Shown one piece after another: positions 6,972-24,981 of a stretch of DNA of 64,000 nucleotides; position 1 is the stretch's first letter; the number at the start of each line of letters is the position of its first letter. Below the pieces are notes generated by a model. It saw only the letters and a list, made by a program, of their open reading frames with translations. It was not told the origin of the DNA and searched no databases. Location of the stretch: contig NZ_JAJJBU010000004.1 in the NCBI RefSeq assembly GCF_020905375.1, positions 62,001 through 126,000 on the forward strand. Direction: 5' to 3'. The stretch comes from Arthrobacter cryoconiti (GTDB lineage: Bacteria > Actinomycetota > Actinomycetes > Actinomycetales > Micrococcaceae). The translations under genes were made by a program, and so were the position numbers.

Positions 6972-7302
6972 CGGACCCCTGTTGTTTGGGATAGCAAAGG
7001 TTAGTTGCGGTATCAATGAACTGTCAGGCTGCTGCGGGCAAGCCCTCAGCAGGGACGCACTGTTCTAGCGTTCCTTTGCCCTAGGTGCAAGGCGCGGACG
7101 GCGACATGGCGTCTCTAGCGCCGTTGGTTTCAGTCCGGTCTCGATTGTTCGCCTAGCCCGAAACATCGTTGACACGGCTGAACGTAACATGTCATATTTT
7201 ACACATCAAGACAGTGTGATCTATCTGACAGTAGCTGCCGTGACGGTGTTTGTGCGTCGCGTTTTTGGCTTGCATGTTGTCACGTCAAAGGAGATGCAGA
7301 CA
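6972..7302 (+). promoter_or_regulatory. Leader and promoter of the ABC importer operon
   Basis: This 331-bp gap has no credible gene. Its right half holds TTGACA at 7169-7174 and, 18 nt later, CATATT (7193-7198), a plausible -35/-10 pair. The -10 lies inside the 19-bp operator at 7184-7202. The true start of the binding-protein gene is at 7303, so the transcript would have a roughly 100-nt leader. Nothing recognisable as a riboswitch was seen. Confidence 0.5.
7184..7202. promoter_or_regulatory. Operator copy A of the hydroxyproline regulon (GntR/FCD candidate site)
   Basis: GTAACATGTCATATTTTAC has GTA/TAC outer arms and an ATGT-C-ATAT core. It aligns without gaps to three other sites in this window (12164, 16953, 20022), all at promoters of hydroxyproline genes. 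It overlaps the likely -10 of the importer operon, which points to repression. Confidence 0.7.
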
Positions 7303-8469
7303 ATGAAACTTCGAATTCCCAAGGTATTTGCTGTGGGCGCAGTGGCCGCAGCCATGCTCGCCACTACCGGGTGTGGCGGCATACTTGGCGGTGGAGGGGA
7401 CAAAACGGCGGATTCAGGGCCGATCAAAATTGCCGCCGTTATTCCGATGTCCGGTTCTAGTGCACCTACCGGCGTGTACATGAAGAATGGCATGCAACTG
7501 GCCGTTAATGAGATCAACGCAAAGGGCGGGGTCCTGGGCCGCCAGCTCGCCTTGGACCTTGAGGATGGCGCTTGCGATCCCACTCAGGCTGCTGCTGCTG
7601 CCAACAAGGCAGTCTCCAACGGTGCGGTTATCTCCGTAGGTGGATACTGCTCGGGGGCCACGCTTCCGACGCTGCCCATCTTCTCCAAGGCCAATATCCC
7701 CATGATTATCCCTGCTGCCAACTCGCAGGACCTGGTCAATCAGAAGCTACCCAACGTTTTTTTGATTAATGGCACCGGCGTCCAGCAGGCGGCAGCGGCC
7801 GTGAAGTTCATGGTCAAGGACGGTATGAAGACTGTGGCTTTGGTGGATGACAACACCAGCTATTCAAAGGACATTGCCGCCGAGACGAAGAAGGACCTGG
7901 CGAGCGAAGGCAGTGTCAAGACGGCGTTGGCCACCTCGGTGACTGCGGGTGAAAGCGACTACTCCTCAGTGGTCCACGACATCATGGGTGCCAAGCCCGA
8001 CATGGTTTACTGGACCGGCTACTACCAAGAGGGTGGGCTGATCATCAATCAGCTCAAGGCGGCTGGGTACCAGGGCAAAATTATGGTCGCTGATGGCAGC
8101 GTTGATCCGTCCCTCGTCACCATCGCTGGAGCAGCAAATGCCGAGGGTGTTCTCGCCACAATGACCCAGACCCCGGACACCATCAAGGGCGCCGAGACAT
8201 GGATTGCCGACTACACCAAAGCGTTCGGTGCGGCTCCCGGGCCATACTCCACGCAATCCTATGACGCTGTCCGAGTGGCAGCCGAAGCCATGAAGCAGGC
8301 CAAGAGCACCGACGGCGATGCCGTAACCAAAGCCTTGACCGCCATCGATGGTTTCCAGATATTCTCCGGTCCGCTGAAGTTCACCCCCGAGCACACGCTA
8401 AGCAACGGTGGCTTCCAAATCCTTGCGGTCCAAGGTGGAAAGTTCGTCTTGAAAGATACTTTGAACTAA
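7303..8469 (+). CDS. ABC transporter substrate-binding lipoprotein, branched-chain amino acid (LivK-like) type
   Basis: A 388-residue periplasmic-binding-protein-type lipoprotein. The start is the ATG at 7303, 10 nt after AAAGGAG; the frame extends upstream to 7189 but that part crosses the operator. An N-terminal signal peptide (KLRIPKVFAVGAVAAAMLA) ends at the lipobox-like TTGC, followed by a Gly-rich linker and a Peripla_BP_6 domain (IKIAAVIPMSGSSAPTG, VALVDDNTSYSKD, YSTQSYDAVRVA). It feeds the permease and ATPase genes downstream. The operator shared with hydroxyproline genes makes hydroxyproline or proline the likely ligand (inference). Confidence 0.9.
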   Translation: MKLRIPKVFAVGAVAAAMLATTGCGGILGGGGDKTADSGPIKIAAVIPMSGSSAPTGVYMKNGMQLAVNEINAKGGVLGRQLALDLEDGACDPTQAAAAANKAVSNGAVISVGGYCSGATLPTLPIFSKANIPMIIPAANSQDLVNQKLPNVFLINGTGVQQAAAAVKFMVKDGMKTVALVDDNTSYSKDIAAETKKDLASEGSVKTALATSVTAGESDYSSVVHDIMGAKPDMVYWTGYYQEGGLIINQLKAAGYQGKIMVADGSVDPSLVTIAGAANAEGVLATMTQTPDTIKGAETWIADYTKAFGAAPGPYSTQSYDAVRVAAEAMKQAKSTDGDAVTKALTAIDGFQIFSGPLKFTPEHTLSNGGFQILAVQGGKFVLKDTLN

Positions 8470-8491
8470 GACGTCTTGAGCTAATTTCTAG

Positions 8492-8528
8492 CAAGCAGCG
8501 GGCAGCCTAAACAACTGTCCGCTGCTTG
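8492..8528 (+). terminator. Intercistronic hairpin between binding protein and permease genes
   Basis: Positions 8492-8505 pair with 8515-8528 (14 bp with one G-U) around a 9-nt loop. There is no T-tract, so it is more likely an mRNA-stabilising or partial-attenuation hairpin, a common way to make more binding protein than permease. Confidence 0.55.
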
Positions 8529-8572
8529 GACCGCCCCTCACTGGAACCATTTTCACAGTCAAGGCAGGACGC

Positions 8573-9466
8573 ATGACACAGCTGATTTGGAATGGCCTTT
8601 TCGTAGGCTCTTTTTACGCACTCATCGCCTTAGGCTATTCAATGGTCTACGGCATCATCAAACTTCTCAACTTCGCCCACGGTGACATCTACATGGTCGG
8701 CGCCTTCATAGGTTTCGCCGTGCTGAGTTCTGTTGGCGTCATACCGGCTTCCATGTCGATCACAGCTCTATTGATAGTGCTGTTGCTGACAATGATCATC
8801 ACCGGCGGCATCGGAGTCGGTATTGAATACCTGGCCTATAGGCCGCTGCGAAACTCACCTCGACTGGCGGTGCTGATCACCGCAGTTGGAGCCTCCTTCA
8901 CGCTGGAATACGGCGTGAGCGCAATCGCTGGCCCTAACCCAAAGGTGTTCCCCGTAAGGCTTGAAGGGGAAAGCTTCGACTTCCTTGGCGCCCGCATTTC
9001 CGCACCACAAATCGTGCTCATGGTCATTGCCGTGGTGCTAATGCTGAGTCTGAACTCCTACATCCAACGCACTTCCATGGGCCGAGCGATGCGTGCCATT
9101 GCTTTGGATCCCAAGGGGGCTCTCCTGATGGGGGTGAACGTCAACAAAATCATTACGTGGACGTTCTTCATCGGCTCCGCACTTGCCGGAGCCGCCGGTG
9201 TCATGGCTGGCGCCTACTACGGCAAGATCGACTTTTTGATGGGTTTCATCATTGGGCTAAAGGCCTTCACCGCAGCAGTCATTGGTGGCATCGGCAATAT
9301 CAAGGGCGCCATGTTGGGCGGGCTACTGTTGGGCTTGCTGGAAGCTTTCGGTTCCCAGTGGCTCGGTGGCCAGTGGCGGGACGTCTTCACTTTTGGAGTT
9401 CTCATCGCATTCCTGACCTTGAAACCTACCGGCTTGCTGGGCGAACGAGTGACGGAGCGTGTCTAA
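8573..9466 (+). CDS. Branched-chain-type ABC transporter permease (LivH-like)
   Basis: A 297-residue membrane protein of the LivH family with about eight helices. It opens with the family motif NGLFVGSFYALIALGYSMVY and contains GIIKLLNFAHGDIYMVGAF and the cytoplasmic coupling segment SMGRAMRAIALDPKGALLMG. It forms the membrane channel with the LivM-like partner, whose ATG follows its stop codon directly (9467). Part of the five-gene importer operon under operator A. Confidence 0.92.
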   Translation: MTQLIWNGLFVGSFYALIALGYSMVYGIIKLLNFAHGDIYMVGAFIGFAVLSSVGVIPASMSITALLIVLLLTMIITGGIGVGIEYLAYRPLRNSPRLAVLITAVGASFTLEYGVSAIAGPNPKVFPVRLEGESFDFLGARISAPQIVLMVIAVVLMLSLNSYIQRTSMGRAMRAIALDPKGALLMGVNVNKIITWTFFIGSALAGAAGVMAGAYYGKIDFLMGFIIGLKAFTAAVIGGIGNIKGAMLGGLLLGLLEAFGSQWLGGQWRDVFTFGVLIAFLTLKPTGLLGERVTERV

Positions 9467-10531
9467 ATGAGTGAGAACGTAGACACAAGCCGCGCTCCGC
9501 GCCGCATCGGTAAGCCAGCGAGCCGCTTCTCACGTCTGTTTGAAAGCAAACAGCTTGGTTGGGGCGCCTTCGTGGTGGCAATAGTTTTCCCGTTTATCTT
9601 GGCCACGCCGTACGCCATGAACATTGGCACCACAGCCGTGATCTTCATCCTGCTCGCCTCAGGGTTGAACATTGTGGTGGGTTATTGCGGGCTTCTTGAC
9701 TTGGGCTACATCGCGTTCATGGCAGTGGGAGCCTATACCTCCGGGATTGTTTCCAAGGCGTGGGACCTACCTATCCTGTTCACCATTCCTGCGGTGTTGG
9801 TTATGTGCATTCTGGCCGGGTTGATCATCGGTGGGCCCACTCTGCGTTTGCGCAGTGACTACCTGGCGATCGTGACACTTGGATTTGGTGAGATTATTCG
9901 GCTTACCGCTAACAATCTTTCCATCACGGGTGGGCCATCCGGGATCTATGGCATCCCAGGCATCGAACTTTTCGGCCTGAAACTTTCCGACTCGGTCCCG
10001 TTCTACTACTTCTGTGTGGTGGTGGTCAGCCTGCTGGTGTTGGGCTCGGCTCGGTTAGGGAAGTCCCGTTTAGGCCGGGCGTGGCGCTTTGTCCGCGAGG
10101 ATGAAGATGCTGCCGAGGCCATGGGCATTCACACCTACAAGGTGAAATTGGCGGCTTACATCTTCGGGGCCATGTGGGGAGGTCTGGGAGGGATGCTGTT
10201 TGCTGCACACCTCTCCGCTATCTCTCCGCAGAGCTTCGTTTTCTTGCAGTCAGCACTTGTCTTGATGGCGGTCGTGCTCGGTGGCATGGGCAATACTCGA
10301 GGCGTGGTTGTCGGTGCCGTTGCTATCTCGCTCTTGCCTGAATTCCTGCGGGACATGGGAAATCTACGGTACGTGATTTTCGGCGTCGTGCTGGTAGCTG
10401 TGATGGTGCTGAGGCCCCAAGGTTTCTGGCCTAGCCGAGCTTTTGAGGTGGAACGCACGGACGGGGAGAGCGAGAACGCAGATCCTGGTCCGGGAGATTC
10501 CGTGAGCCCGGCGAAAGGTGGGACGCTATGA
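9467..10531 (+). CDS. Branched-chain-type ABC transporter permease (LivM-like)
   Basis: A 354-residue permease of the LivM family. After a roughly 30-residue hydrophilic N-terminus come about nine helices with the family landmarks GLNIVVGYCGLLDLGYIAFM, RLRSDYLAIVTLGFGEIIRL and GRAWRFVREDEDAAEAMG (the coupling helix to the ATPases). A hydrophilic C-terminal tail rich in Glu/Gly/Pro follows. It starts directly after the livH-like stop and overlaps the first ATPase gene by 4 bp, consistent with translational coupling. Confidence 0.92.
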   Translation: MSENVDTSRAPRRIGKPASRFSRLFESKQLGWGAFVVAIVFPFILATPYAMNIGTTAVIFILLASGLNIVVGYCGLLDLGYIAFMAVGAYTSGIVSKAWDLPILFTIPAVLVMCILAGLIIGGPTLRLRSDYLAIVTLGFGEIIRLTANNLSITGGPSGIYGIPGIELFGLKLSDSVPFYYFCVVVVSLLVLGSARLGKSRLGRAWRFVREDEDAAEAMGIHTYKVKLAAYIFGAMWGGLGGMLFAAHLSAISPQSFVFLQSALVLMAVVLGGMGNTRGVVVGAVAISLLPEFLRDMGNLRYVIFGVVLVAVMVLRPQGFWPSRAFEVERTDGESENADPGPGDSVSPAKGGTL

Positions 10532-11358
10532 GTCCGCTATTGGAAGTCAATGAACTCCAGATCGCCTTCGGCGGGGTCAAGGCAGTCAACGGACTCACTT
10601 TTTCAGCCGACGCCGGAGAGATCGTCTCGGTGATCGGCCCGAATGGGGCGGGGAAGACGAGTGCGTTCAACTGCATCACCGGATTTTATAAGCCGGTTAG
10701 CGGCACGGTTTTGGTGGACGGGCAGGATATTACGGGCAAACGTCCGGCCGCCATTGCAGCAACCGGAGTCACTCGTACGTTCCAGAACCTGCGCCTGTTC
10801 CCGGATTTGACGGTGCTGGATAATGTTCGCGGTGGTATGCATTTATATGGCGGACAGAATTTTGTGGACGCCCTCTTTCACACTCCTCGGTATCGCAAGA
10901 GCGAGGCGTACTACACGGACGAGGCGCACCGTTGGCTGGACTTCGTAGGATACCGGGGAGGGCGAGGGATTCCCGTCCGAAATCTGGCTTACGGGCAGCA
11001 ACGCCAAGTCGAAATGGCACGCGCCATGGCCCGCAAGGCCAAGCTCGTGCTTCTGGATGAGCCAGGGGCGGGTCTGAACCACTCCGAAAAACGCGAGCTA
11101 CTTCAGTTGTGCCGCAAGATTCGTGACCTTGGTGCCGCCGTCGTACTGATCGAACATGACATGAGCGTTGTCATGGAGGTCAGCGAACGGGTGGTAGTTA
11201 TGAACTTTGGTAAGGAAATTGCGGACGGGACCCCGGATGAAGTGAAAAAGAATCCACAAGTCATCGAGGCGTATCTTGGAAAAGCCGATGAACCGGCGGC
11301 TGATGAAGCGAAAGATGCTGCGGGCCGAGCGGAAAATCCGGACGGGGGCAAGCTCTGA
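10528..11358 (+). CDS. ABC transporter ATP-binding protein (LivG-like)
   Basis: A 276-residue ATPase. Walker A is GPNGAGKTS near residue 38; the signature position reads YGQQRQVEMARAMA (a LivG-type variant of LSGGQ); Walker B is KLVLLDEPGAGLN; the switch His is in VVLIEHDMSVV. The C-terminal GKADEPAADEAKDAAGRAE tail is acidic and longer than usual. It overlaps livM-like by 4 bp and livF-like by 1 bp (TGATG). It energises hydroxyproline/amino acid import with its LivF-like partner. Confidence 0.92.
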   Translation: MSPLLEVNELQIAFGGVKAVNGLTFSADAGEIVSVIGPNGAGKTSAFNCITGFYKPVSGTVLVDGQDITGKRPAAIAATGVTRTFQNLRLFPDLTVLDNVRGGMHLYGGQNFVDALFHTPRYRKSEAYYTDEAHRWLDFVGYRGGRGIPVRNLAYGQQRQVEMARAMARKAKLVLLDEPGAGLNHSEKRELLQLCRKIRDLGAAVVLIEHDMSVVMEVSERVVVMNFGKEIADGTPDEVKKNPQVIEAYLGKADEPAADEAKDAAGRAENPDGGKL

Positions 11359-12068
11359 TGTCAATGCTCAATTTTGAGAACGTTGAAGTCTTTTACGGCA
11401 AAATTCAAGCCCTGCGCGGAATCGATATCCGGGTCGAAGAGGGCGAGATCGTGGCCTTGTTGGGTAACAACGGTGCTGGGAAAACCACAACGTTATCCGC
11501 GGCGTCTGCCATTGTGAAAGTCCACTCCGGCGCCATCAGTTTTGCCGGAGCAGACATCACGCGGGCCAAGCCGTGGGACGTGGTTAATGCGGGGCTCATC
11601 CATGTGCCCGAAGGCCGGCGAATCTTCTCCACCCTGTCCGTTCTGGAAAATCTCCAGTTGGGTGGGTATCTGGTCAAGGACCGTTCCGCCGTGCAAAAAA
11701 GGCTCAAGGACGTCTTTGAGCTGCTTCCCCTGCTAGCGCAACGGCGCTCGCAGCAAGGTGGAACGCTCTCCGGTGGAGAGCAACAGATGCTCGCGATTGG
11801 ACGTGCGCTCATTGCAGGGCCGCGCATGCTGATGCTGGACGAGCCGTCTATGGGTTTGGCGCCGCTGATCGTCGCTCAGGTCATGGACGTTATCAAAGAG
11901 GTCAACGCCAACGGCACCACGGTGCTACTCGTGGAGCAAAATGCTCGTGCCGCTTTGAAGATTACGAGTCGTGGTTATGTCATTGAAAACGGTGTGACCA
12001 CCATGACCGGGACCGGTGCTGAACTCATGGCTGATTCCCGGATCGTCGAGGCCTACCTCGGCGCATAG
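11358..12068 (+). CDS. ABC transporter ATP-binding protein (LivF-like)
   Basis: A 236-residue ATPase with Walker A GNNGAGKTT, signature LSGGEQQMLAIGRAL, Walker B RMLMLDEPSMGLAP and switch His replaced by Gln in VLLVEQNARAAL, as is normal for LivF. It contains the family segment GLIHVPEGRRIFSTLSVLENL. It is the last gene of the importer operon and ends 12 bp before a 12-bp-stem terminator. Confidence 0.92.
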   Translation: MSMLNFENVEVFYGKIQALRGIDIRVEEGEIVALLGNNGAGKTTTLSAASAIVKVHSGAISFAGADITRAKPWDVVNAGLIHVPEGRRIFSTLSVLENLQLGGYLVKDRSAVQKRLKDVFELLPLLAQRRSQQGGTLSGGEQQMLAIGRALIAGPRMLMLDEPSMGLAPLIVAQVMDVIKEVNANGTTVLLVEQNARAALKITSRGYVIENGVTTMTGTGAELMADSRIVEAYLGA

Positions 12069-12080
12069 GGTTGGGGCTTC

Positions 12081-12116
12081 AACGGGGACCAGGGCACTAC
12101 TGCGCTGGTCCCCGTT
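12081..12116 (+). terminator. Terminator of the importer operon
   Basis: AACGGGGACCAG (12081-12092) pairs perfectly with CTGGTCCCCGTT (12105-12116) around a 12-nt loop, 12 bp after the livF-like stop. There is no long T-tract, as is common in high-GC actinobacteria. It separates the importer operon from the operator-controlled catabolic operon. Confidence 0.75.
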
Positions 12117-12163
12117 GGCGGCTTAAGTTCTGAGTTGGCGCTGCTGTGGCCACTTCTTCACTA

Positions 12164-12182
12164 GTATTATGTGACATTGTAC
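12164..12182. promoter_or_regulatory. Operator copy B of the hydroxyproline regulon
   Basis: GTATTATGTGACATTGTAC: the ATGT-G-ACAT core and GTA/TAC ends are perfectly symmetric. It lies 72 bp before the deaminase start (12255), in the 186-bp promoter region of the catabolic operon. It is the most symmetric of the four copies. Confidence 0.75.
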
Positions 12183-12254
12183 TGATAGTGTGAGCGTTAT
12201 CACTGCTCCTCTGGGGAGCCTGGATCACATTGCTTTTGGACAAAGGAGACCATC

Positions 12255-13160
12255 ATGACAAGTCGCACTCAGCCCTGGCAGGGCATCCACGTCGCTACCG
12301 CTCTGCAGTTCACGGCCGACGGCGCCGTTGACTATGCGGCCTACGGTGAGCATGTCGCTTGGCTGGCGGCAAATGGCTGCGACGGCGTTTGCCCCAACGG
12401 TTCCTTGGGCGAATATCAGACGTTGACGCTCGAGGAGCGGGCGAAGGTCGTGGAGACGGCCGTTGCGGCCGCACCCGCTGGGTTTACCGTCATGCCGGGT
12501 GTTGCGGCCTACGGCGCGGATGAGTCCCGTCGCTGGGCCGAGCAAGCACGCGATGCCGGTGCCGCTTCCGTGCTGGCGCTGCCCCCTAATACTTTCAAGG
12601 CCGACGACGAAGCCGTCGTGGCACATTACCGTGAGGTCGCTAAGGCCGGGCTGCCGATCGTTGCTTACAACAACCCGTATGACACCAAGGTCGATTTGAC
12701 GCCTGCGCTGCTGGCCCGCCTGCATGGTGAGGGCTTGATCGTGGCGGTGAAGGAATTTACTGGGGATGTTCGCCGTGCTTACGAAATTGCCGAGCTCGCT
12801 CCTGATCTGGATCTGTTGATCGGCTCCGATGACGTATTGCTAGAGCTTGGTCTAGCTGGTGCCGTGGGGTGGATTGCCGGCTACCCGAACGCGATCCCGG
12901 AAAGCACCGTGAAACTGTACAACCTGGCCACGAGTGGCGATGCCGCGGACATCATGGCAGCGCTTCCCATTTACCGTGACCTCCACTCACTGCTGCGCTG
13001 GGATTCCAAACCGGAGTTTGTGCAGTCCATCAAGCTCTCGATGGACATCGCAGGACGCAACGGCGGCGCCTGCCGTCAGCCTCGTCTGCCGTTGCCAGCC
13101 GAGCTAGCAGCGCGGATCACAGCTGACACCGAGGCCGTCCTGGCCAAGGGCTACAAGTAA
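12255..13160 (+). CDS. DapA-family aldolase/deaminase, probable 1-pyrroline-4-hydroxy-2-carboxylate deaminase
   Basis: A 301-residue TIM-barrel protein of the dihydrodipicolinate synthase family. The Schiff-base lysine is K166 (VAVKEFTGD) and the catalytic tyrosine Y138 (VAYNNPYDTK); PNGSLGEYQTL corresponds to the substrate-binding loop. In hydroxyproline clusters this family converts 1-pyrroline-4-hydroxy-2-carboxylate to 2-oxoglutarate semialdehyde plus ammonia. AAAGGAG precedes the ATG. First gene of the operon running through the epimerase, aconitase X and reductase. The specific reaction is inferred from neighbours; a lysine-biosynthetic DapA is unlikely here. Confidence 0.85.
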   Translation: MTSRTQPWQGIHVATALQFTADGAVDYAAYGEHVAWLAANGCDGVCPNGSLGEYQTLTLEERAKVVETAVAAAPAGFTVMPGVAAYGADESRRWAEQARDAGAASVLALPPNTFKADDEAVVAHYREVAKAGLPIVAYNNPYDTKVDLTPALLARLHGEGLIVAVKEFTGDVRRAYEIAELAPDLDLLIGSDDVLLELGLAGAVGWIAGYPNAIPESTVKLYNLATSGDAADIMAALPIYRDLHSLLRWDSKPEFVQSIKLSMDIAGRNGGACRQPRLPLPAELAARITADTEAVLAKGYK

Positions 13161-13170
13161 AGGCCAATCA

Positions 13171-14172
13171 ATGCGCTCCAAGCGTGTCTTTCATTCCGTA
13201 GAATCCCACACCGAGGGAATGCCCACCCGCGTCATCGTCGGCGGGGTGGGCACCATCCCAGGTGCCACTATGGCTGAACGCCGCCAGTGGTTCATGGAGA
13301 ACAGCGACGACGTCCGCACCCTGTTGATGTGCGAACCGCGCGGTCACGCGTCAATGAGTGGGGCAATCTTGCAGCCCCCTACCCGGGCCGACGCCGACTA
13401 TGGGGTCTTGTTCATTGAAGTCTCCGGGCTGTTGCCCATGTGTGGGCATGGCACCATCGGTGTGGCGACGGTGTTGGTGGAAACAGGAATGGTTGACGTG
13501 GTGGAGCCGGTCACTACGATTCGGCTGGATACACCTGCCGGGTTGGTGGTCGCTGAAGTCGCAGTGGAGGGTGGAAGCGCCAAATCCGTGACCATTACCA
13601 ACGTGCCCTCCTTTGTTTTAGCGCTTGATCAGAGCGTGCAGGTGGAAGCCTTTGGTGAAGTGCATTACGACATGGCGTTTGGTGGAAATTTTTACGCCAT
13701 CGTTGACCTGGATGAGCTGGGATTGCCATTTTCCCGGGTAGCCAAGGATCAGCTGCTGGATGCAGGATTGAAGATCATGGACGCCATCAACACCCAAAAC
13801 ATGCCCATCCACCCGGAGCGGGCGGACATCACGGGCTGTCACCACGTGTATTTGGCGGCTCCCGGATCCACAGCTCAGCATTCCCGTCATGCCATGGCCA
13901 TTTACCCGGGCTGGTTTGACCGTTCACCGTGCGGCACCGGCACCAGTGCTCGGATGGCCCAACTTCACGCTCGTGGAGCGTTGGCGCTCAATACTGACTT
14001 CGTCAACGAGTCCTTCATTGGCACAGCGTTCGTAGGCCAATTAGTAGCGGAAACGACGGTGGCTGGGCTTCCCGCGGTGATCCCCACCATCACTGGACGG
14101 GCCTGGATTACCGGGACCGCACAGTATCACCTGGACCCGGAGGACCCTTTCCAAGCGGGATTCCTCTTGTGA
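13171..14172 (+). CDS. Proline racemase family, probable 4-hydroxyproline 2-epimerase
   Basis: A 333-residue member of the proline racemase family. Both catalytic cysteines are present: C91 in LPMCGHGTIG and C254 in RSPCGTGTSAR. That pair marks racemases/epimerases; the related trans-3-hydroxyproline dehydratases have Thr at the second site. The family interconverts trans-4-hydroxy-L-proline and cis-4-hydroxy-D-proline, the first step of 4-hydroxyproline use. It starts 10 bp after the deaminase and overlaps the aconitase X gene by 4 bp. Proline racemase activity is a less likely alternative given the flanking genes. Confidence 0.87.
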   Translation: MRSKRVFHSVESHTEGMPTRVIVGGVGTIPGATMAERRQWFMENSDDVRTLLMCEPRGHASMSGAILQPPTRADADYGVLFIEVSGLLPMCGHGTIGVATVLVETGMVDVVEPVTTIRLDTPAGLVVAEVAVEGGSAKSVTITNVPSFVLALDQSVQVEAFGEVHYDMAFGGNFYAIVDLDELGLPFSRVAKDQLLDAGLKIMDAINTQNMPIHPERADITGCHHVYLAAPGSTAQHSRHAMAIYPGWFDRSPCGTGTSARMAQLHARGALALNTDFVNESFIGTAFVGQLVAETTVAGLPAVIPTITGRAWITGTAQYHLDPEDPFQAGFLL

Positions 14173-15446
14173 GTGCCCCGGTACTCGTGCTCAGGAGCGA
14201 GGAGGCTGCCATGCTGTGCGGCGATCGTGGTAACGGCACCGCCATGGCCATGCGCATGGTGGTGTCACTAGCTGGCGTGTTGGGGGCGACGCGGCTCATA
14301 CCCGTGACCAACGCGCACATTGATGGCTGTCTCTATCACGGGCAGGCGGGGCTCGATTTTGCCCAGAAGCTGGCCGGTCTTGGTGCGAAAGTGGCTGTTC
14401 CCACCACTTTGAATACCAGCTCATTGGACCTTTTGCACCCTGGCTTGGTAAGGCTGCCCCCGCAGGATGCCATCGACGCCCGGGCATTGATGGATGCGTA
14501 CCGTGCACTTGGTGCCCGCGCGACGTGGACGTGTGCGCCCTACCAGTCCGTGGAGCGTCCGGGATTCGGCGAAGACATCGCGTGGGCGGAATCGAACGCG
14601 ATCGTTTTCGCGAACTCTGTGTTGGGGGCACGGACCGAACGTTATGGGGACTTCATCGATATTTGTGCCGCTATCACCGGTCGAGTACCGCACGCCGGAC
14701 TGCATCTGGAAGGGAACAGGGTGCCCACAGTGGAGCTTGACTGCTCGGCGTTGTCTGTCCGGATGTTGGGTGAGGAGGCCATCTGGGCCGCACTCGGTGA
14801 CGTGGTCGGGCGCAGCTCGGGGTCCAGGGTTCCACTGCTGACGGGAATCAATCCAACTTTGGTGGACGAGGACAAACTCAAGGCATTGGGGGCTACCGCA
14901 GCGTCTTCCGGAGGAGTCGCACTCTTTCACGTAGCGGGTGTAACGCCTGAGGCGATTGCTGCCGCGGGGAATCCAGACTGGTTCGGTAAACCAAGGATTG
15001 CCATCACCGCGGCGATGTTGCGAGCGGCTCGCGATGAATTGACGACGGCGGACCCTTCAGCGCCGCTTGATGCCGTGGCTTTGGGCACACCGCACTTTTC
15101 CGTGCACGAATTTGAAAAACTCGCAGCTTCGCTTGAGGACTCAAGCGACTTCCATGCCGACTGCACGGTCTGGATCAACACTTCACGAGAGGTTTTGGCA
15201 CAAGCGCGCGAAAAAGGCTTTGTGCAAGCTGCGCAGGAACGTGGTGCCCGCATCGTGGTGGACACGTGCACGTACATCACGCCCATCTTGGCACCGGAGG
15301 AGCGGACAGTGATGACGCCGTCGGGCAAATGGGCTTGGTACGCTCCCATGAATCTTGGCGTTGACGTGGTGTTTGGCACGTTGGGGGAATGCCTAGCCTC
15401 AGCTCGCGCCGGAAAGGTGGTGCGCGATGATCGCCAGTGGGAATGA
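14169..15446 (+). CDS. Aconitase X catalytic (large) subunit, probable cis-3-hydroxy-L-proline dehydratase
   Basis: A 425-residue DUF521/AcnX protein (GTG start, 4-bp overlap with the epimerase). The N-terminus AAMLCGDRGNGTAMAMRMVV, the HIDGCLYHGQAGLDFAQKLA block and the late VVDTCTYITP carry conserved cysteines expected to hold the iron-sulfur cluster. Bacterial AcnX of the two-polypeptide type dehydrates cis-3-hydroxy-L-proline to pyrroline-2-carboxylate; archaeal relatives act on phosphomevalonate. The adjacent small subunit and pyrroline-2-carboxylate reductase candidate favour the hydroxyproline reaction. Confidence 0.87.
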   Translation: MSAPVLVLRSEEAAMLCGDRGNGTAMAMRMVVSLAGVLGATRLIPVTNAHIDGCLYHGQAGLDFAQKLAGLGAKVAVPTTLNTSSLDLLHPGLVRLPPQDAIDARALMDAYRALGARATWTCAPYQSVERPGFGEDIAWAESNAIVFANSVLGARTERYGDFIDICAAITGRVPHAGLHLEGNRVPTVELDCSALSVRMLGEEAIWAALGDVVGRSSGSRVPLLTGINPTLVDEDKLKALGATAASSGGVALFHVAGVTPEAIAAAGNPDWFGKPRIAITAAMLRAARDELTTADPSAPLDAVALGTPHFSVHEFEKLAASLEDSSDFHADCTVWINTSREVLAQAREKGFVQAAQERGARIVVDTCTYITPILAPEERTVMTPSGKWAWYAPMNLGVDVVFGTLGECLASARAGKVVRDDRQWE

Positions 15447-15987
15447 AGGCGCTGGGGAAGGATCAATGGGGTCTGTTCCACCTCCGCCTGATCATAACCT
15501 CGCTGATGCAAAGCTGTGTGGTCAAACAGTGAGTGGTCAAACTATGCGCGGTCTAACTTTGTGCTGCGGTGATGGCTGCGGCGCGCTGCTGGCGTTGGAT
15601 GAACCATTGTCTTTCTGGGGTGGCATGGATAGGAACACCGGCATGATCATTGACACCCACCATCCCCAGTCCGGAACATCGATGGCGGGAAGGGTTATCT
15701 TGATGGACGCCTCGCGGGGGTCGAGTTCATCATCGTCGGTGCTGGCAGAAGCGATACGTGCCGGCGTGGGCCCGGCCGCGATTTTGCTGCTGGTGCGAGA
15801 CGCCATTGTGGCCTTGGGCGTGATGGCTGCTGCGGAGCTTTACGGAACATTCGTGCCGGTCGTCCTGCTCGACGCGGAACAGTCTCAAGTCCTGCACGCA
15901 TCGGCGTCCGGCGTGCACATTTGCATAACGGCGCACGCGAGCGGACATGCCGACGTCGTGCTTTACTCACTTAAGAACCCCCACTGA
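15427..15987 (+). CDS. Aconitase X swivel-domain (small) subunit
   Basis: A DUF126 protein, the mobile swivel domain of aconitase X encoded separately. The family core is GALLALDEPLSFWGGMDRNTG followed by THHPQSGTSMAGRVILM and GSSSSSSVLAEAIRAGVGPAAIL. The frame opens at ATG 15427, overlapping the large subunit by 20 bp; an alternative ATG at 15466 has GGGGAAGG just upstream and would give 173 instead of 186 residues. The C-terminus extends beyond the minimal domain. It must pair with the preceding gene product to form the dehydratase. Confidence 0.87.
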   Translation: MIASGNEGAGEGSMGSVPPPPDHNLADAKLCGQTVSGQTMRGLTLCCGDGCGALLALDEPLSFWGGMDRNTGMIIDTHHPQSGTSMAGRVILMDASRGSSSSSSVLAEAIRAGVGPAAILLLVRDAIVALGVMAAAELYGTFVPVVLLDAEQSQVLHASASGVHICITAHASGHADVVLYSLKNPH

Positions 15988-16002
15988 ACAGAAGGAGCCT
16001 CC

Positions 16003-16956
16003 ATGGCCCTGCCATACATCGACGCCTCAGCTCTGAACGCGCTAATGTCCCCGACCGCGGCCGTCGCAGCTCTCGAGGAGGCTTTACGCGGTGGCCAGGA
16101 CCCGGAATCGGATTCGCCGCGCCTGTTTGCGCCGCTGGCTACCGGGGAATTCTTGTTCATGCCAGCGCAGTCTGCCAAGTATGCGGGGGTCAAAGTGGTC
16201 ACCGTGGCGCCGGAGAACCCCGCCAAGTCCCACCCCAAGATTCAGGGGACTTATCTGTTGCTCGATGGCGAATTTCTAACGCCGTTGGCGGCCCTTGACG
16301 GTGCCGAAATGACTCTGATCCGAACTCCCGCCGTGACCATTATGGCCGTCAAACACCTGCTGGCGTTGCGGGACGCGGATTCGGCGGGGAACGTGGTGGT
16401 TTTTGGCACCTCACTACAGGCGGATAGGCACATAGAGGCGCTGTTGGCTGTATGTGGAATCGACTCTCTGGTGGTGGTGGGTAGGCGTGCGGAGGCCGCG
16501 GCAGCGCTTGCTGACAGGTGGACGGAACGTGGGCTTTCGGCTAGGGCCGGTGAGCCGGCGGATGTTGCGCGAGCCGACGTCGTGCTGTGTGCGACTTCTT
16601 CATCGGTTCCGGTTTTTGATGGCGCTTTGGTCCAGGAATCAGCGGTGGTGGCGGCCATTGGATCTCACGGATTGGATGCGAGAGAGATTGATCCGGCCCT
16701 TGTATTAAGGGCTGAAGTGGTGGTGGAAGGGTATGGATCTGCTCTGCGTGAGGCAGGGGACTTGATTCCTGCGCGATCCGGACGGGAGTGGGAGGCGCGC
16801 GGGCTGGTGACACTGGCGGATCTTCTTAACGGACGTTTTGCGCCCGAGCCCGGCAAGCCGTTGCTGTACACCGGAGTGGGGATGTCATGGGAAGACATCG
16901 TGGTGGCCGGAAGGGCCTACGAACTCTTTACGGCAACAAGGGCTATCGTCGACTAA
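16003..16956 (+). CDS. Ornithine cyclodeaminase/mu-crystallin family, probable 1-pyrroline-2-carboxylate reductase
   Basis: A 317-residue NAD(P)-binding protein. It has the family N-terminus (DASALNALMSPTAAVAALEE), the substrate-binding GVKVVTVAPENP and LLLDGEFLTPLAALDGAEMT segments, a Rossmann motif around VVVFGTSLQADRHIEAL, and the CATSSSVPVFDG region. In hydroxyproline clusters this family reduces 1-pyrroline-2-carboxylate to L-proline. It follows the aconitase X subunits by 15 bp with GAAGGAG before its ATG. Its stop codon lies inside operator C, so the next gene's control region overlaps its end. Confidence 0.85.
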   Translation: MALPYIDASALNALMSPTAAVAALEEALRGGQDPESDSPRLFAPLATGEFLFMPAQSAKYAGVKVVTVAPENPAKSHPKIQGTYLLLDGEFLTPLAALDGAEMTLIRTPAVTIMAVKHLLALRDADSAGNVVVFGTSLQADRHIEALLAVCGIDSLVVVGRRAEAAAALADRWTERGLSARAGEPADVARADVVLCATSSSVPVFDGALVQESAVVAAIGSHGLDAREIDPALVLRAEVVVEGYGSALREAGDLIPARSGREWEARGLVTLADLLNGRFAPEPGKPLLYTGVGMSWEDIVVAGRAYELFTATRAIVD

Positions 16957-16971
16957 AATGTCATATTGTAG
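16953..16971. promoter_or_regulatory. Operator copy C of the hydroxyproline regulon, at the gntR promoter
   Basis: CTAAAATGTCATATTGTAG: the outer arms are CTA/TAG instead of GTA/TAC, again symmetric, with core ATGT-C-ATAT. It overlaps the reductase stop codon and precedes the gntR ATG (17021) by 49 bp. It suggests autoregulation of gntR. Confidence 0.68.
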
Positions 16972-17020
16972 TGGACATCAAGTTCCACTTCCATTGCTTT
17001 ATACGGGGAACGGAGGAGTC

Positions 17021-17689
17021 ATGAGCTCCCTGGAACATTCGCACCTGACCATGGTCAAAAAGAATGTCAGCCTGCGCGAGACCGTTACCCAAGCTCTCCG
17101 GGCTGCCGTCATCTCAGGCGAAATGAAGCCTGGCGAAGTGTATTCGGCGCCGACCCTAGGTAAGCGGTTTGGTGTTTCCCCCACCCCCGTTCGCGAAGCC
17201 ATGCTGGATCTGGCTAAAGAGGGACTGGTAGTTTCCTTGCCGAATAAAGGGTTTCGCGTCACGGAGGTTTCCGATGCGGACTTGGACGACATCACCGCCC
17301 TTCGACTATTGATTGAACCACCCACGGTTAGGGATGTAACTGCGCTCATCGACTCCGCCGGGTTGGTTCGACTACGTGAAATGGCGGACGCCATTGTCGA
17401 GTATGCCGGTGAGGGTGACTTGATTGCCTACACCGAAGCTGACCGTGCGTTCCACATCACCATCCTTGAGTACCGCGGAAACCGGAAACTCGTATCCTTG
17501 ATTTCGGATCTGCGCGCACACACGCGTCTGCTGGGTCTTGCGCCGCTGGCCGCCTCAGGAAAGCTGCGGGAAATGGCTTTGGAGCACGTGGAACTCGTTG
17601 ACTTGATAGGCGCCGGTAAAGCGAATGAAGCCCAGGCGCTAATGACCCGTCACATTGGGCACGTTCGTGGTGAATGGGCTAAGCACTGA
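17021..17689 (+). CDS. GntR-family (FCD/FadR subfamily) regulator of the hydroxyproline genes
   Basis: A 222-residue regulator: winged helix in the first 80 residues (LRETVTQALRAAVISGEMKP, RFGVSPTPVREAMLDLAKEG, LVVSLPNKGFRVTEVS) and a helical FCD ligand domain from about 95 (DITALRLLIEPPTV, ADRAFHITILEYRGNRKL, EHVELVDLIGAGKANEAQ). The ATG at 17021 has GGAGGAG upstream; the frame extends further but through operator C. Palindromes with TGT/ACA cores are typical FadR-type sites, and the four copies found here flank exactly the genes this protein would control. The ligand is probably a hydroxyproline or pathway intermediate. Confidence 0.9.
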   Translation: MSSLEHSHLTMVKKNVSLRETVTQALRAAVISGEMKPGEVYSAPTLGKRFGVSPTPVREAMLDLAKEGLVVSLPNKGFRVTEVSDADLDDITALRLLIEPPTVRDVTALIDSAGLVRLREMADAIVEYAGEGDLIAYTEADRAFHITILEYRGNRKLVSLISDLRAHTRLLGLAPLAASGKLREMALEHVELVDLIGAGKANEAQALMTRHIGHVRGEWAKH

Positions 17690-17767
17690 TACTTGAGCGA
17701 GCTGTTCGGGATTCAAGGGAACGGTTCGCGATCCAATTTGCCGCAAGGAAATGACGCCGGAGGCTCT

Positions 17768-19780
17768 TCAGCTGGTGACGAAGGGGACATGTGGACGGGA
17801 TGCGGCGCTGCTAGGCTCTGCGGTTTCCGGTTCATGCAGGGCTCGATTGATGGTGCGGCTGATGCATTGCTTAATCCACTTGGGATAGCTGGGTGCCCGG
17901 GTTTCATTGTTTAGGGGCGGATGGTATTTGCCGGACGGTGATCGCCATCCGACTCGCCCGTCGGGTGTGGTGCTGGGGGTCCAGCCACGGAGTTTGATGG
18001 CCGCACGACTAGGGTCGCGATCGGTGCGGTAACGGCCGTGTCGATCCTTGTCGTCTTTGAAGTGTTTGAGAATGTGGTGGCGTTTGCACGCAGGTCTACG
18101 ATTATCCGATGTGGACCTGCCGCCGTGGTCCCAGGAAGTGAGGTGGTCCAAATCGGTGTCCAGAACCGAGTTGGTGCAGCCGGGGAAATAGCAGCTGCCA
18201 GCTAGGGCGCGCAGAACAGCCTTCTCAACGTCGCGGCTCCGGTAGCGCTCCGGGTTCAAGTCCAGTGGTTTGTTGGACACGGGGTCGGTGAGAACACGCA
18301 GGAAAGTGCCACTATTGCCAAGGAGTTTGCGGGCGATCGATTCAGGGATAGGACCATAACCTGCCAGTTCTGCTGGTTCGTCAGTAATACCCAAGGCACC
18401 TAGGAACGGTACGGTGAGCAGGATCTGCGCTTCCGGGGAGGGTGGGTCCGCGATGACGGCGCCGTCGCGAATTGCATCCAACTGCTCAAGGTATTCCTGC
18501 AGTGGATCCTCTGGGATCCCGTCGACAATGCCGTCGACATAGCCTGAACCATCACTCGGTAGCGTCCCCACCAGTGGGCTATCACAGACCACGCCTACGA
18601 GTGGGCTCACGGTGCCGAAGTCCTGGCCCTCGGGAATGTGTTCGCTTCTATGCGCCCAATCCGGTACGACGCAGACCCCAAAATTCTCCGATGGCTCATT
18701 GTTGGGGGTTGGTGGGTCAAAAGGAGGGACGATGACGGAAGCGAATTCCTTTTCTGAAGGCGAGCGGTTGGGCCTTGGAGTGCTGATCTTTGAGGCCGTC
18801 GCCGTGGTGTCAGCTTTAGTCGGGAGGGGGTGTTGGCCTAGGAGGAGTGCCGCCGCGATGTCTACCCGAAGTTGGGACAGCGTCCGGTGCTCTCCAGCCC
18901 GGTGCTCTCCGCTGAGTCCGTTTTTACGGTGGTCGCCAGCTGCTTGGTACTTGAGGTTCCGGGCGCTGCGAGTGCAATTGACCCAGATGCCTTCAGCTGC
19001 CGGGGCTGGCAAATGCAGTGTCAGCCAAGACATCCCGTCCTTGCCGGGTTCAAGGATCATCTCACGCTTGGCATAGGCCAGTTTGGTACGAGTCACGAGG
19101 GATTCTGGATGGGTGGATTCCCTTGCCCGGCGTGCCTTTGACGCGAAGCCCGTGGCCGTCGTGTCAGGAGCCAAAGCGAGCAGGCGTTGCTCAAAACTGG
19201 CCGCCACGGCAGCGTCGAGACCGGGGGTCTCGGCCAAGATCGCTGACTCATCCATGATGATGACAGCATGTCGCCACGACAGCACACCGGCTTGTAGAGC
19301 TGTGTGCGTGTGCGGGTGACTAGCTATGAGTTCGGTGGACTGGTGGGCCAGGGCAGACGCAGTGCGCTCAGGCACACAAAGAGTGAGGGCAATGTCGGAA
19401 CAAGTGGAAGAATCACTGATCCCTGTCTGCCACTGATCCAATTCCAGAGCCACAGCTTCCAAGCGGGAAGCGCACATCATTCGATCCACCACGGAAGCCT
19501 TGCACGCGGCAGTAGCGTCCTCTAACCGTTTCAGTTCGGCCAACGTGGCAAGCGCGGCGTCATACACGCCTCGCGCCACAGAGACTATTGACGCAGGTAT
19601 TGGATCAGGCGTCGAGGCTGGCAAATATGCCGGTAGGCCGGTGAGGTCGGGATTGTCTGATCCGAAGGGTTCAATTGAAGGAAGAGCAATCGCGCGGATC
19701 ACCGAAGCCACATCGACCGCCGCCACATCGCCCGTAGCTTCAGTAGCCTGATCCAGCGGCATCCTCTCCCAATTGCTCAT
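17768..19780 (-). CDS. DUF222 / HNH endonuclease domain protein (13E12 repeat-family type)
   Basis: A 670-residue protein with an N-terminal DUF222 region (about 60-330: AAVASFEQRLLALAPDTTAT, LAYAKREMILEPGKDGMSWL), a Pro/Ser-rich variable middle, and a C-terminal HNH motif with CYFPGCTNSVLDTDLDHL and RRPACKRHHILKHF. These proteins occur in many dispersed copies in actinobacteria and behave as a mobile, SOS-linked family; their true activity is unclear. It is antisense to the hydroxyproline genes and splits them. Its upstream region is AT-rich and carries a LexA-type box at 19824-19837. ATG start at 19780. Confidence 0.88.
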   Translation of the reverse strand: MSNWERMPLDQATEATGDVAAVDVASVIRAIALPSIEPFGSDNPDLTGLPAYLPASTPDPIPASIVSVARGVYDAALATLAELKRLEDATAACKASVVDRMMCASRLEAVALELDQWQTGISDSSTCSDIALTLCVPERTASALAHQSTELIASHPHTHTALQAGVLSWRHAVIIMDESAILAETPGLDAAVAASFEQRLLALAPDTTATGFASKARRARESTHPESLVTRTKLAYAKREMILEPGKDGMSWLTLHLPAPAAEGIWVNCTRSARNLKYQAAGDHRKNGLSGEHRAGEHRTLSQLRVDIAAALLLGQHPLPTKADTTATASKISTPRPNRSPSEKEFASVIVPPFDPPTPNNEPSENFGVCVVPDWAHRSEHIPEGQDFGTVSPLVGVVCDSPLVGTLPSDGSGYVDGIVDGIPEDPLQEYLEQLDAIRDGAVIADPPSPEAQILLTVPFLGALGITDEPAELAGYGPIPESIARKLLGNSGTFLRVLTDPVSNKPLDLNPERYRSRDVEKAVLRALAGSCYFPGCTNSVLDTDLDHLTSWDHGGRSTSDNRRPACKRHHILKHFKDDKDRHGRYRTDRDPSRAAIKLRGWTPSTTPDGRVGWRSPSGKYHPPLNNETRAPSYPKWIKQCISRTINRALHEPETAEPSSAASRPHVPFVTS

Positions 19781-19823
19781 ATTGTCATTTTATCAAAATA
19801 GTATTCATTTAGATACAGTTATA

Positions 19824-19837
19824 CGAACATTAGTTCT
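19824..19837. promoter_or_regulatory. LexA (SOS) box upstream of the DUF222/HNH gene
   Basis: CGAACATTAGTTCT matches the actinobacterial SOS box pattern GAAC-N4-GTTC exactly in both half sites. It ends 44 bp upstream of the DUF222 start, with TATAAC (complement of 19818-19823) adjoining as a possible -10. The 264-bp gap 19781-20044 otherwise holds only AT-rich promoter DNA and, at its right end, operator D. Confidence 0.7.
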
Positions 19838-20021
19838 AATAATTCCGACGCGCTCTCCTCACTATTATTCGTGGCACGTGAGCAGGGTGAAGAGGTAAAT
19901 CGCTTAGCGATGGTTTTGGGCGATGGCCCCGGGTAGCAGCCTCGAAGCATGGCGTCAGCCTCATCTTTTGGTGGTAGTGGCCGGATGCCAACTCCGAGGA
20001 GGAAAGTCCTTTTCTGAACGG

Positions 20022-20040
20022 GTAGTGTGTGACATACTAC
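20022..20040. promoter_or_regulatory. Operator copy D of the hydroxyproline regulon, abutting a probable leaderless start
   Basis: GTAGTGTGTGACATACTAC: arms GTAGT/ACTAC are perfectly complementary, core TGT-G-ACA. It ends 4 bp before the dehydrogenase ATG (20045). CATACT (20033-20038) is a plausible -10 inside it, placing transcription start at about the ATG. No Shine-Dalgarno sequence lies between. Confidence 0.72.
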
Positions 20041-20044
20041 AGAT

Positions 20045-21214
20045 ATGAGCCTTCCCCAATCCGTTGACGTTGTGGTCATCGGCGCTGGTGCCGTCGGTGC
20101 GGCTTGCGCGTACTTTGCCGCGAAATCGGGACTGAAGGTCGCGGTCGTAGATAAGGGCGCCATTGCCAGCGGTACGTCAAGTGCGTGTGAGGGCAACATT
20201 TTGGTTTCTGACAAGGAAGCCGGGCCGGAACTGACGCTTGCTCAATACTCGCAGTCGTTATGGCGCGGTGAGCTAGCAGAATTCGGGCGCCTGTGGGAAT
20301 TTGAGTCCAAGGGCGGCTTGGTGGTTTCGGCGAAGCCCGGAACGCAAGCCAACTTGACGCAGCTGGCAAGCCGACAGCGTGCCTGCGGGATCGACGTCGA
20401 ACTTGTTCACGCGGATTATTTACATGACTTTGAACCCCGCCTCAACCCGGATATGGTCGGCGGCGCCTACTATTCGCAGGACGCTCAGGTTCAGCCAACT
20501 TTGGCGGCCGCCCACCTGCTCCGTCTGGCTCGAGGGATGGGAGCAACCGTGCACCCCGGCATGCGGGTCACCGGTTTTATCAGGAGCGGGGAAACTGTCA
20601 CGGGAACGGTCACGGACCGAGGCACCATTTTCGCCAAGGCCGTTGTCAATGCCGCCGGGACGTGGGGCGGGGTCATTGCGGAACTAGCTAATGTCAACGT
20701 TCCAGTTCTGCCTCGCAAGGGTTATGTCATGGTGACCGAGCCGCTTCCCTTACTTGTTCGCCATAAAGTGTATGCGGCCGAATATGTGGACAATGTGGCA
20801 AGTTCGGATGCGGGCTTGCAGACCTCTCCAGTCGTGGAGGGGACCGGTGGCGGGACTATCCTGATCGGTTCCAGCCGGGAACGTGTGGGCTTCGATAAAT
20901 CGTTCAGCGTCTTCGTGCTCGCGGAGATGGCACGCAAGGCGATAACGCTGTTCCCGTTCCTGCGGGACGTGAAGGCCCTGCGCAGCTATTCCGGGTTCCG
21001 GCCGTACTGCCCAGATCATTTGCCCGTCATCGGACCGGACCCGCGCGCGCCGGGCATGTGGCATGCGTGCGGCCACGAAGGCGCCGGAATTGGGCTCTCC
21101 GTGGGCACAGGTGCTCTGATAGCTGCATCGCTGACTGGGGCAAAAACCGACATGGATCTAGCGCCGTTTGCCCCTGAACGCTTCGAAAATCAGATGGAGG
21201 CAGCTCATGACTGA
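20045..21214 (+). CDS. FAD-dependent D-amino-acid-oxidase-like subunit, probable D-hydroxyproline dehydrogenase (catalytic subunit)
   Basis: A 389-residue DAO-family flavoprotein: the GAGAVGAACAYFAAKSGLKV dinucleotide fold at residues 12-31, a DKGAIASGTSSACEGNIL flavin loop, and a C-terminal FAD segment GHEGAGIGLSVGTG. Together with the next two genes it matches the three-subunit (alpha/beta/gamma) D-hydroxyproline dehydrogenase arrangement known from Pseudomonas, which oxidises cis-4-hydroxy-D-proline to 1-pyrroline-4-hydroxy-2-carboxylate. It is the first gene of a tightly overlapping operon under operator D. Glycine or opine oxidase-like alternatives share this architecture; context decides. 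Confidence 0.86.
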   Translation: MSLPQSVDVVVIGAGAVGAACAYFAAKSGLKVAVVDKGAIASGTSSACEGNILVSDKEAGPELTLAQYSQSLWRGELAEFGRLWEFESKGGLVVSAKPGTQANLTQLASRQRACGIDVELVHADYLHDFEPRLNPDMVGGAYYSQDAQVQPTLAAAHLLRLARGMGATVHPGMRVTGFIRSGETVTGTVTDRGTIFAKAVVNAAGTWGGVIAELANVNVPVLPRKGYVMVTEPLPLLVRHKVYAAEYVDNVASSDAGLQTSPVVEGTGGGTILIGSSRERVGFDKSFSVFVLAEMARKAITLFPFLRDVKALRSYSGFRPYCPDHLPVIGPDPRAPGMWHACGHEGAGIGLSVGTGALIAASLTGAKTDMDLAPFAPERFENQMEAAHD

Positions 21215-21533
21215 ATTGCACTTGACCCTTGACGGTGCGCCTATGTCCGCGCGGCCGGGACAAACCGTCGGTGCAGCACTGAGCGATGCCGGCATTACCT
21301 CCTGGCGTACTACTCGCATGGGTGGGCGGCCCCGCGGGTTGTTTTGCGGCATTGGTGTATGTTTTGACTGCCTCATAACGGCCGACGGCGTGCCCAACCA
21401 GCGCGCTTGTCTCATCCCCGCCCGGGCGGGCATGGCCTTAGAGACAGGTCATGCTGGTGCTGGCCTGGCCGGCGACAGCTGGGCCGAGATGGAAGGCGGG
21501 AGTGCCCCCGCGGCTGGGAGTGGAGATTCATGA
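21207..21533 (+). CDS. 2Fe-2S ferredoxin-like small subunit of the D-hydroxyproline dehydrogenase
   Basis: A 108-residue Fer2-type protein with C47, C52, C55 and C68 in CGIGVCFDC...RAC spacing, the plant-type 2Fe-2S pattern found in the small subunits of opine/sarcosine/hydroxyproline oxidase complexes. The start is the ATG at 21207, overlapping the catalytic subunit by 8 bp; the frame opens earlier (21168) but that is inside the previous gene. It overlaps the next gene by 4 bp. Its role is electron transfer between the two flavoprotein subunits. A short Gly/Ala-rich tail follows the domain. Confidence 0.87.
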   Translation: MTELHLTLDGAPMSARPGQTVGAALSDAGITSWRTTRMGGRPRGLFCGIGVCFDCLITADGVPNQRACLIPARAGMALETGHAGAGLAGDSWAEMEGGSAPAAGSGDS

Positions 21534-24918: not shown

Positions 24919-24981
24919 CTGATGCCGGGAGCCCTGGATGTAGAAACAAAAAATACAAAAGCACAAAAGAAAGTGAAGCAC

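Follow-up and report, generated by a model that had tools for sequence, protein, structure and literature searches.

A 19-bp palindrome at four promoters of the Arthrobacter cryoconiti hydroxyproline island is a likely operator of a HypR-type regulator

Within a 64,000-nucleotide (nt) stretch of the Arthrobacter cryoconiti genome, called the window here, an island of predicted hydroxyproline genes carries a shared 19-base-pair (bp) palindrome in front of four transcription units, one of which encodes a GntR/FCD regulator. The four sites are given without strand, and the genes of these units lie on the plus strand. Operator 1 (7184..7202, GTAACATGTCATATTTTAC) precedes an operon for an ATP-binding cassette (ABC) transporter of the branched-chain-amino-acid type (7303..12068), which comprises open reading frames for a binding protein, two permeases, and two ATPases, with NCBIfam matches for three of the five subunits. 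Operator 2 (12164..12182, GTATTATGTGACATTGTAC) precedes the deaminase/epimerase operon, whose first gene, of the DapA family and by family the counterpart of SCO6292, likely encodes pyrroline-4-hydroxy-2-carboxylate deaminase (12255..13160). By family scan, it is followed by a 4-hydroxyproline epimerase/proline racemase family gene (13171..14172), the first of two overlapping aconitase X genes (14169..15446), the aconitase X swivel part (15427..15987), and an ornithine-cyclodeaminase family gene nearest to pyrroline-2-carboxylate reductases (16003..16956). Operator 3 (16953..16971, CTAAAATGTCATATTGTAG) lies before the gene for the 222-amino-acid regulator (17021..17689), a HypR homologue by its Pfam GntR and FCD domains, alignment, and tree. 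Operator 4 (20022..20040, GTAGTGTGTGACATACTAC) ends 4 nt 5' of the ATG of the D-hydroxyproline dehydrogenase operon. This operon encodes a FAD-dependent oxidoreductase resembling the dehydrogenase beta subunit (20045..21214; SCO6289 counterpart by family), a gamma-like 2Fe-2S protein (21207..21533, family scan), an alpha-like NAD(P)/FAD oxidoreductase (21524..23464, start provisional), an aldehyde dehydrogenase that from its context is likely an alpha-ketoglutarate semialdehyde dehydrogenase (23461..24918), and an Xaa-Pro aminopeptidase of family M24 (24922..26463, family scan). The exact substrates are read from the cluster, because all NCBIfam matches shown for island genes fall under the curated cut-offs.

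The initial annotation of this DNA had aligned four gapless sites, and all four were found exactly at its coordinates. Operators 1 to 4 contain 7, 7, 7, and 8 self-complementary pairs of 9, respectively, and at least 7 of 9 pairs occurred in about 0.16% of 20,000 random 19-mers drawn from the window. When a matrix was built from three sites, these three were the only 19-mers of the window to outscore the fourth in all four trials, with left-out sites scoring 15.1 to 24.0 and the best non-sites scoring 7.4 to 10.5. A scan of the whole genome (3,598,525 bases) with STANNATGTSAYATNNTAS at up to one mismatch returned these four sites and no others, and the reversed control returned none; the claim that the motif lies at the island promoters and nowhere else was therefore upheld, and the motif is not common at unrelated promoters. 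At two mismatches, six additional places appeared in the genome with matrix scores of 0.7 to 15.1, the highest being 15.1 (C26:68141) and 14.8 (C30:1649), compared to 27.6 to 32.8 for the four sites. At three mismatches, the genome counts hardly rose above the reversed control (69+71 versus 64+58), and thus we claim no weak additional sites. The nine-base core ATGTNACAT at up to one mismatch occurred 13 times in the window, compared to 14.7 expected, which is chance level; specificity must therefore be carried by the outer letters. The left end of operator 3 (CTAA) holds the TAA stop codon of the preceding gene (16954-16956), and its conservation is accordingly partly coding.

The regulator scored 53.3 bits against the Pfam GntR model and 79.3 bits against FCD, both above cut-off, and its gene is linked to epimerase, deaminase, and three-part dehydrogenase genes, as is the case for HypR of the Streptomyces coelicolor type. 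Kotowska et al. (2019; PubMed Central [PMC] record PMC6608401) footprinted HypR (SCO6294) of S. coelicolor A3(2) over TACAATGTCAC. The same paper also reports six further fragments bound in gel shift and two fragments left unbound, demonstrates, with reporters among the evidence, repression of hydroxyproline genes by HypR and induction by L-hydroxyproline (L-Hyp) in vivo, and describes no effect of L-Hyp or D-Hyp on HypR binding in vitro. On its opposite strand, operator 2 reads GTACAATGTCACATAATAC and contains the footprinted word, which overturns the statement of the initial annotation that it knew of no described operator of this sequence. Judged by its operator word (TACAATGTCAC/TGCAATGTCAC), the window protein groups with the S. 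coelicolor-type HypR, given that the word lies in operator 2 and that a matrix of genus sites transfers to Streptomyces. The S. coelicolor metal-site residues E96, D138, H142, E185, H186, and H208 correspond to E99, D141, H145, E188, H189, and H211 of the window protein, at a constant offset of 3 that was taken from the numbering in the paper and not from the S. coelicolor protein sequence; by the same mapping, four of the five DNA contacts, S50, T52, R55, and N72, correspond to S53, T55, R58, and N75, and the fifth, R71, falls on Pro74. In S. coelicolor, and by prediction in the window, the regulon also takes in hypR itself and the dehydrogenase (alpha, beta, and gamma), deaminase, and epimerase genes (PMC6608401). 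The two systems differ in that the window genes are distributed over four operators in a single island and include a branched-chain-type ABC transporter, an aconitase X/pyrroline-carboxylate reductase branch, an aldehyde dehydrogenase, and an Xaa-Pro aminopeptidase, which are not in Table 2 of PMC6608401.

The motif follows the regulator through the genus. It was found in 14 of 23 genomes, exactly those with the regulator at E < 1e-60, and was absent from the other nine, where the best regulator matches reached only E 1e-13 to 1e-35; the epimerase was found in the same 14. We scored the promoters of relatives with a matrix from the four window sites only, and the scan of related genomes suggested by the initial annotation placed the motif at the orthologous promoters: the best 19-mer scored at least 18.2 before the dehydrogenase, deaminase, and hypR genes in 12/12 relatives and before the transporter in all nine relatives with that promoter in hand (three others were not in hand). 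Ranked by identity to the window among 182 19-mers, the site came first at the dehydrogenase, second at hypR, third at the transporter, and sixth at the deaminase promoter; the top-identity 19-mer overlapped the site at the deaminase and hypR promoters and did not at the transporter promoter.

Sites in relatives also precede genes outside these four units, including trans-3-hydroxyproline-dehydratase-like genes. Four relatives carry an operator before a second proline-racemase-family gene (L034 3898-3916, L035 16317-16335, L042 14409-14427, and L064 7610-7628); the L034 gene is nearest by score to trans-3-hydroxy-L-proline dehydratase, below cut-off, and no homologue of this second gene was seen in the island of the window. 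One relative (L052) has a site before a proline-iminopeptidase-like gene that adjoins an Xaa-Pro aminopeptidase gene, and another (L054) has one before a gene resembling the major facilitator superfamily, both names (iminopeptidase and transporter) being read from the sequence without a family search. Two relatives (G182 and G255) have a second DapA-like gene, 69-70% identical to that of the window and far from the island, with an operator of its own (L051 9567-9585; L053 7769-7787).

Across the family, 34 of 295 genomes matched the motif, 20 of them among the 272 outside the genus, compared to 7/295 for the reversed control. In eight of these 20 out-of-genus genomes, the match lay within 8 kilobases (kb) of a HypR homologue on the same contig, and we annotated five of the eight places as hyp loci. 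In one out-of-genus genome (G267), the match is flanked by a transporter-like gene on one side and a 42% homologue on the other; another (G237) has two sites at transporter-like genes. Among 67 HypR-like tree rows from fetched loci, 53 had three or more hyp genes in their neighbourhood, and every one of these 53 loci contained a site at the threshold of 14 bits.

For the comparison with Streptomyces, a matrix was built from 25 distinct genus sites, and a site was counted at 14 bits or more within 260 nt upstream. The sample was the best 80 of 554 loci around HypR homologues, of which 79 are titled Streptomyces and one "Actinobacteria bacterium OV450"; none is S. coelicolor. Sites were present upstream of the dehydrogenase in 49/49, the deaminase in 36/56, and hypR in 50/80 cases. 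The epimerase, alpha, reductase, ABC ATPase, and trans-3-type genes were expected to lie inside operons or to be unrelated and served as the negative set; none had a site (0/60, 0/46, 0/25, 0/27, and 0/21, respectively). Random 275-nt windows from the same loci, true sites included, contained a site in 20 of 800 draws, and when 40 of these 80 loci were Markov-shuffled, no match was left, compared to 111 in the real sequences. The word T[AG]C[AC]ATGTCAC was present in 68/80 Streptomyces hypR promoters. Collagenase is a published HypR target in S. coelicolor (PMC6608401), and we sampled collagenase (Peptidase_M9) loci from 41 Streptomyces-type genomes, obtaining 30 loci from 35 listed places. 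At a threshold of 12 bits, a site lay 5' of the M9 domain in 27/30 loci and 3' of it in 6/30, and none was found in 150 Markov copies.

The sites resolve the recognition word as a 19-bp palindrome in which only one base separates GT from AC, which is new. The S. coelicolor consensus, CTNTGC(A/C)ATGTCAC, covers 14 nt with symmetry described as "not clear", whereas the window shows the full palindrome, a length with which the 21-bp S. coelicolor footprint agrees (PMC6608401). Genus sites keep both halves (upstream/downstream scores of 14.7/15.5 at the deaminase, 14.2/16.6 at the transporter, and 12.7/16.0 at the dehydrogenase), less well so at hypR (14.0/11.4); these sites are largely those behind the matrix, and the 12 transporter rows include some genomes twice. 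At the 50 Streptomyces hypR sites of at least 14 bits, the upstream half is nearly lost, with mean half scores of 0.7 bits upstream and 16.2 bits downstream. Dehydrogenase promoters of both the genus and Streptomyces keep the downstream half better than the upstream half.

The initial annotation had likened the sites to palindromes read by FadR-type proteins. The GntR and FCD domains place the protein in the FadR family as proposed, but the operator departs from that type: a survey of GntR regulators describes FadR-type TKGT/ACMA operators with 3 nt between GT and AC, or 2 nt in some groups including proteobacterial HypR (PMC4494728), and the spacing is 1 nt in all four window sites, which, compared by operator spacing, also sets them apart from the proteobacterial operators. 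The outer boxes lie 7-9 bases from the operator centre, and the survey describes extra boxes at 7-12. In eight of the 30 collagenase loci (L222, L223, L226, L228, L229, L230, L233, and L245), operator matches overlap with an offset of 7 bases, a pattern that the use of three half-sites would give. Such overlaps fit a GTnnnAT unit repeated every 7 bases, and the S. coelicolor authors reported direct repeats in two cases (PMC6608401).

Two operators overlap likely -10 elements, as had been claimed: operator 1 over CATATT and operator 4 over CATACT. A consensus scan of 6970-20100 found 10 promoter-like sites compared to 4.6 expected, among them a sigma-70-like promoter on the plus strand (TTGACA-N18-CATATT, 7169..7198, 10 of 12 matches) whose -10 falls inside operator 1. 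The hexamer CATACT inside operator 4 (20033..20038, plus strand) spans -12 to -7 from the ATG and is the presumed -10 of a leaderless promoter. Reading in frame from the site onwards, we took the first start codon met as the dehydrogenase start, a choice that agrees with the annotation in Arthrobacter sp. ERGS1:01. In 13/13 genus loci, counting the window, 4 or 5 nt separate the operator from an ATG; in Streptomyces, the distance to a GTG is again 4 or 5 nt in 47/49 loci and 1 nt in the remaining two. Positions -12 to -7 hold a hexamer of the CATACT or CATATT kind, whose A and T are aligned to within one base in 13/13 and 47/49 loci, respectively, and no Shine-Dalgarno-like word (GGAG, GAGG, or AGGA) was present at -18 to -4 in any of the 62 loci. 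The dehydrogenase mRNA is probably leaderless, with the downstream half of the operator as its -10. In S. coelicolor, the HypR site adjoins the transcription start of SCO6289 (PMC6608401).

In the open-licence PMC literature, we found no paper on hydroxyproline in Arthrobacter and no relevant paper on leaderless hydroxyproline transcripts in Streptomyces. S. meliloti HypR was reportedly described as a repressor of hydroxyproline genes by White et al. in 2012. Like the repressor proposed for the window, HypR of Sinorhizobium meliloti and other proteobacteria belongs to the GntR-family repressors of hydroxyproline genes, and these regulons are often autoregulated (PMC5343134); a second regulon paper that bears on the subject is PMC3223726. 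LhpR of Pseudomonas aeruginosa likewise controls hydroxyproline catabolic genes but is an AraC-family activator, and thus a different type of protein (as cited in PMC6608401).

Our preferred reading, to which we assign a probability of roughly 92%, is that the GntR/FCD protein encoded at 17021-17689 is the actinobacterial hydroxyproline repressor HypR, that the four palindromes serve as its operators, and that it controls the four transcription units. A HypR dimer would bind GTRnnATGTSAYATnnYAC over or beside the core promoter and block RNA polymerase at two catabolic operons (deaminase/epimerase/3-hydroxyproline and D-hydroxyproline dehydrogenase), at the ABC transporter operon, and at its own gene; we infer both the binding of the four sites and its dimeric form. 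Without hydroxyproline, the dimer would cover the transporter -10 and the presumed dehydrogenase -10. Upon hydroxyproline uptake, an intermediate would enter the FCD pocket, HypR would be released, and repression would be lifted. The inducer is more likely to be a downstream metabolite than L-Hyp itself, and a pyrroline carboxylate is a reasonable candidate, although a guess, given that the 3-hydroxyproline branch and the pyrroline-carboxylate reductase stand under the same operator. The repression proposed in the initial annotation is documented for the S. coelicolor homologue (PMC6608401) and would apply here by analogy. Overall, the view of the island as a single regulon is supported, and the interpretation given in the initial annotation as a whole is supported in part.

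Several observations weigh against this assignment. Support for binding by the window protein consists of sequence comparison and the analogy with S. coelicolor HypR, and one S. coelicolor DNA contact, Arg71, is replaced by Pro74 in the numbering-based mapping. Regulator and pathway are inseparable by co-occurrence because the epimerase has the same 14/23 distribution, although the motif is still tied to the system. Ten of the 20 matching out-of-genus genomes have a lone match that is not near a listed homologue. Six of the 14 HypR-like tree rows without nearby hyp genes still have a site in the locus, and the label "hyp genes and site" requires seven changes on the tree (shuffled mean, 13.0), so that it is clustered without forming one clade. 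In Streptomyces, 30/80 hypR and 20/56 deaminase promoters lack a site of 14 bits, and of the 178 matches in the 80 loci, 43 fall outside every promoter that was tested.

The alternative that survives best, although unlikely, is that some of the four promoters are activated by HypR, with or without being repressed by it as well. The divergent promoter of SCO6295 was lower in the S. coelicolor mutant, and one S. coelicolor site lies more than 60 bp upstream of a start site; the authors consider the activation probably indirect (PMC6608401), and operators 1 and 4 overlap the -10 region.

It is quite improbable that the sites are real operators of a regulator other than the linked GntR/FCD protein. 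The genome holds eight matches to the regulator at E ≤ 0.001, the motif co-occurs with the pathway as well as with the regulator, and the case for binding by the linked protein is built from comparison. That protein is nevertheless a HypR homologue with a site before its own gene, the same word is read by S. coelicolor HypR (PMC6608401), and the motif accompanies HypR-type loci over families of Actinomycetes.

Slightly less probable still is the possibility that co-expressed genes share the motif as a conserved part of their core promoters, such as a -10 or alternative-sigma element, and not as a repressor operator. The -10-like hexamers within operators 1 and 4 would suit such an element, as would the better-kept downstream half at the dehydrogenase promoter in the genus and in Streptomyces. 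The genus sites, however, are two-fold symmetric and stand at widely differing distances from the start codon (4 to about 106 nt), no site occurs in genus genomes that lack the regulator, and the same word was footprinted with HypR in S. coelicolor (PMC6608401). Chance resemblance or a composition effect, which the chance-level count of the nine-base core in the window might suggest, has a vanishingly small probability given the genome-wide specificity, genus co-occurrence, and leave-one-out ranking, and is refuted by the conservation in relatives and the transfer to Streptomyces.

We give even odds to a broader reading. Across Actinomycetes, HypR would read a 19-bp operator unusual for the FadR type, with an inner palindrome, one base between GT and AC, outer GTR/YAC boxes, and GTnnnAT units every 7 bp. 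The downstream half-site at the dehydrogenase would be the -10 of a leaderless promoter, with repressor and polymerase competing for the same letters from Arthrobacter to Streptomyces, and the regulon would unite the 4- and 3-hydroxyproline pathways.

Beyond the known S. coelicolor operator, the picture is sharpened in three respects: the full palindrome, a wider regulon (transporter, 3-hydroxyproline branch, and peptidase), and a dehydrogenase operator over a presumed leaderless -10. A single-species result with an unclear recognition sequence becomes a sharp two-half operator that can be used in Arthrobacter-type and Streptomyces genomes, making regulons for hydroxyproline from collagen and plant cell walls predictable in soil actinomycetes. 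One 19-bp word serving as operator and, probably, as leaderless -10 provides a clean case of this arrangement. The cis-3-hydroxyproline branch, plus a probable trans-3-hydroxyproline gene in relatives, under the same operator offers a clue to the inducing intermediate.

In Arthrobacter sp. ERGS1:01 (NZ_CP012477.1), the annotated order from deaminase to aldehyde dehydrogenase is identical to that of the window but without aconitase X, and the cluster (103508-132173) is carried by a replicon of 754 kb that the record lists as a plasmid. The window encodes its aconitase X (14169-15987) in two genes that overlap, the swivel part coming second, whereas in the NCBIfam model for cis-3-hydroxyproline dehydratase a single chain begins with the swivel part. 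In the window, a DUF222-family gene on the minus strand (17768-19780) separates hypR from the dehydrogenase operon. It resembles an insertion, given that the gap measures 2359 nt here compared to 73-197 nt in 11/12 relatives. In the remaining relative (G128, L040 6703-8001), the gap is 1299 nt and holds open reading frames read, without a family search, as a RES-type toxin and its antitoxin, so that this interval is a possible hotspot for insertions.

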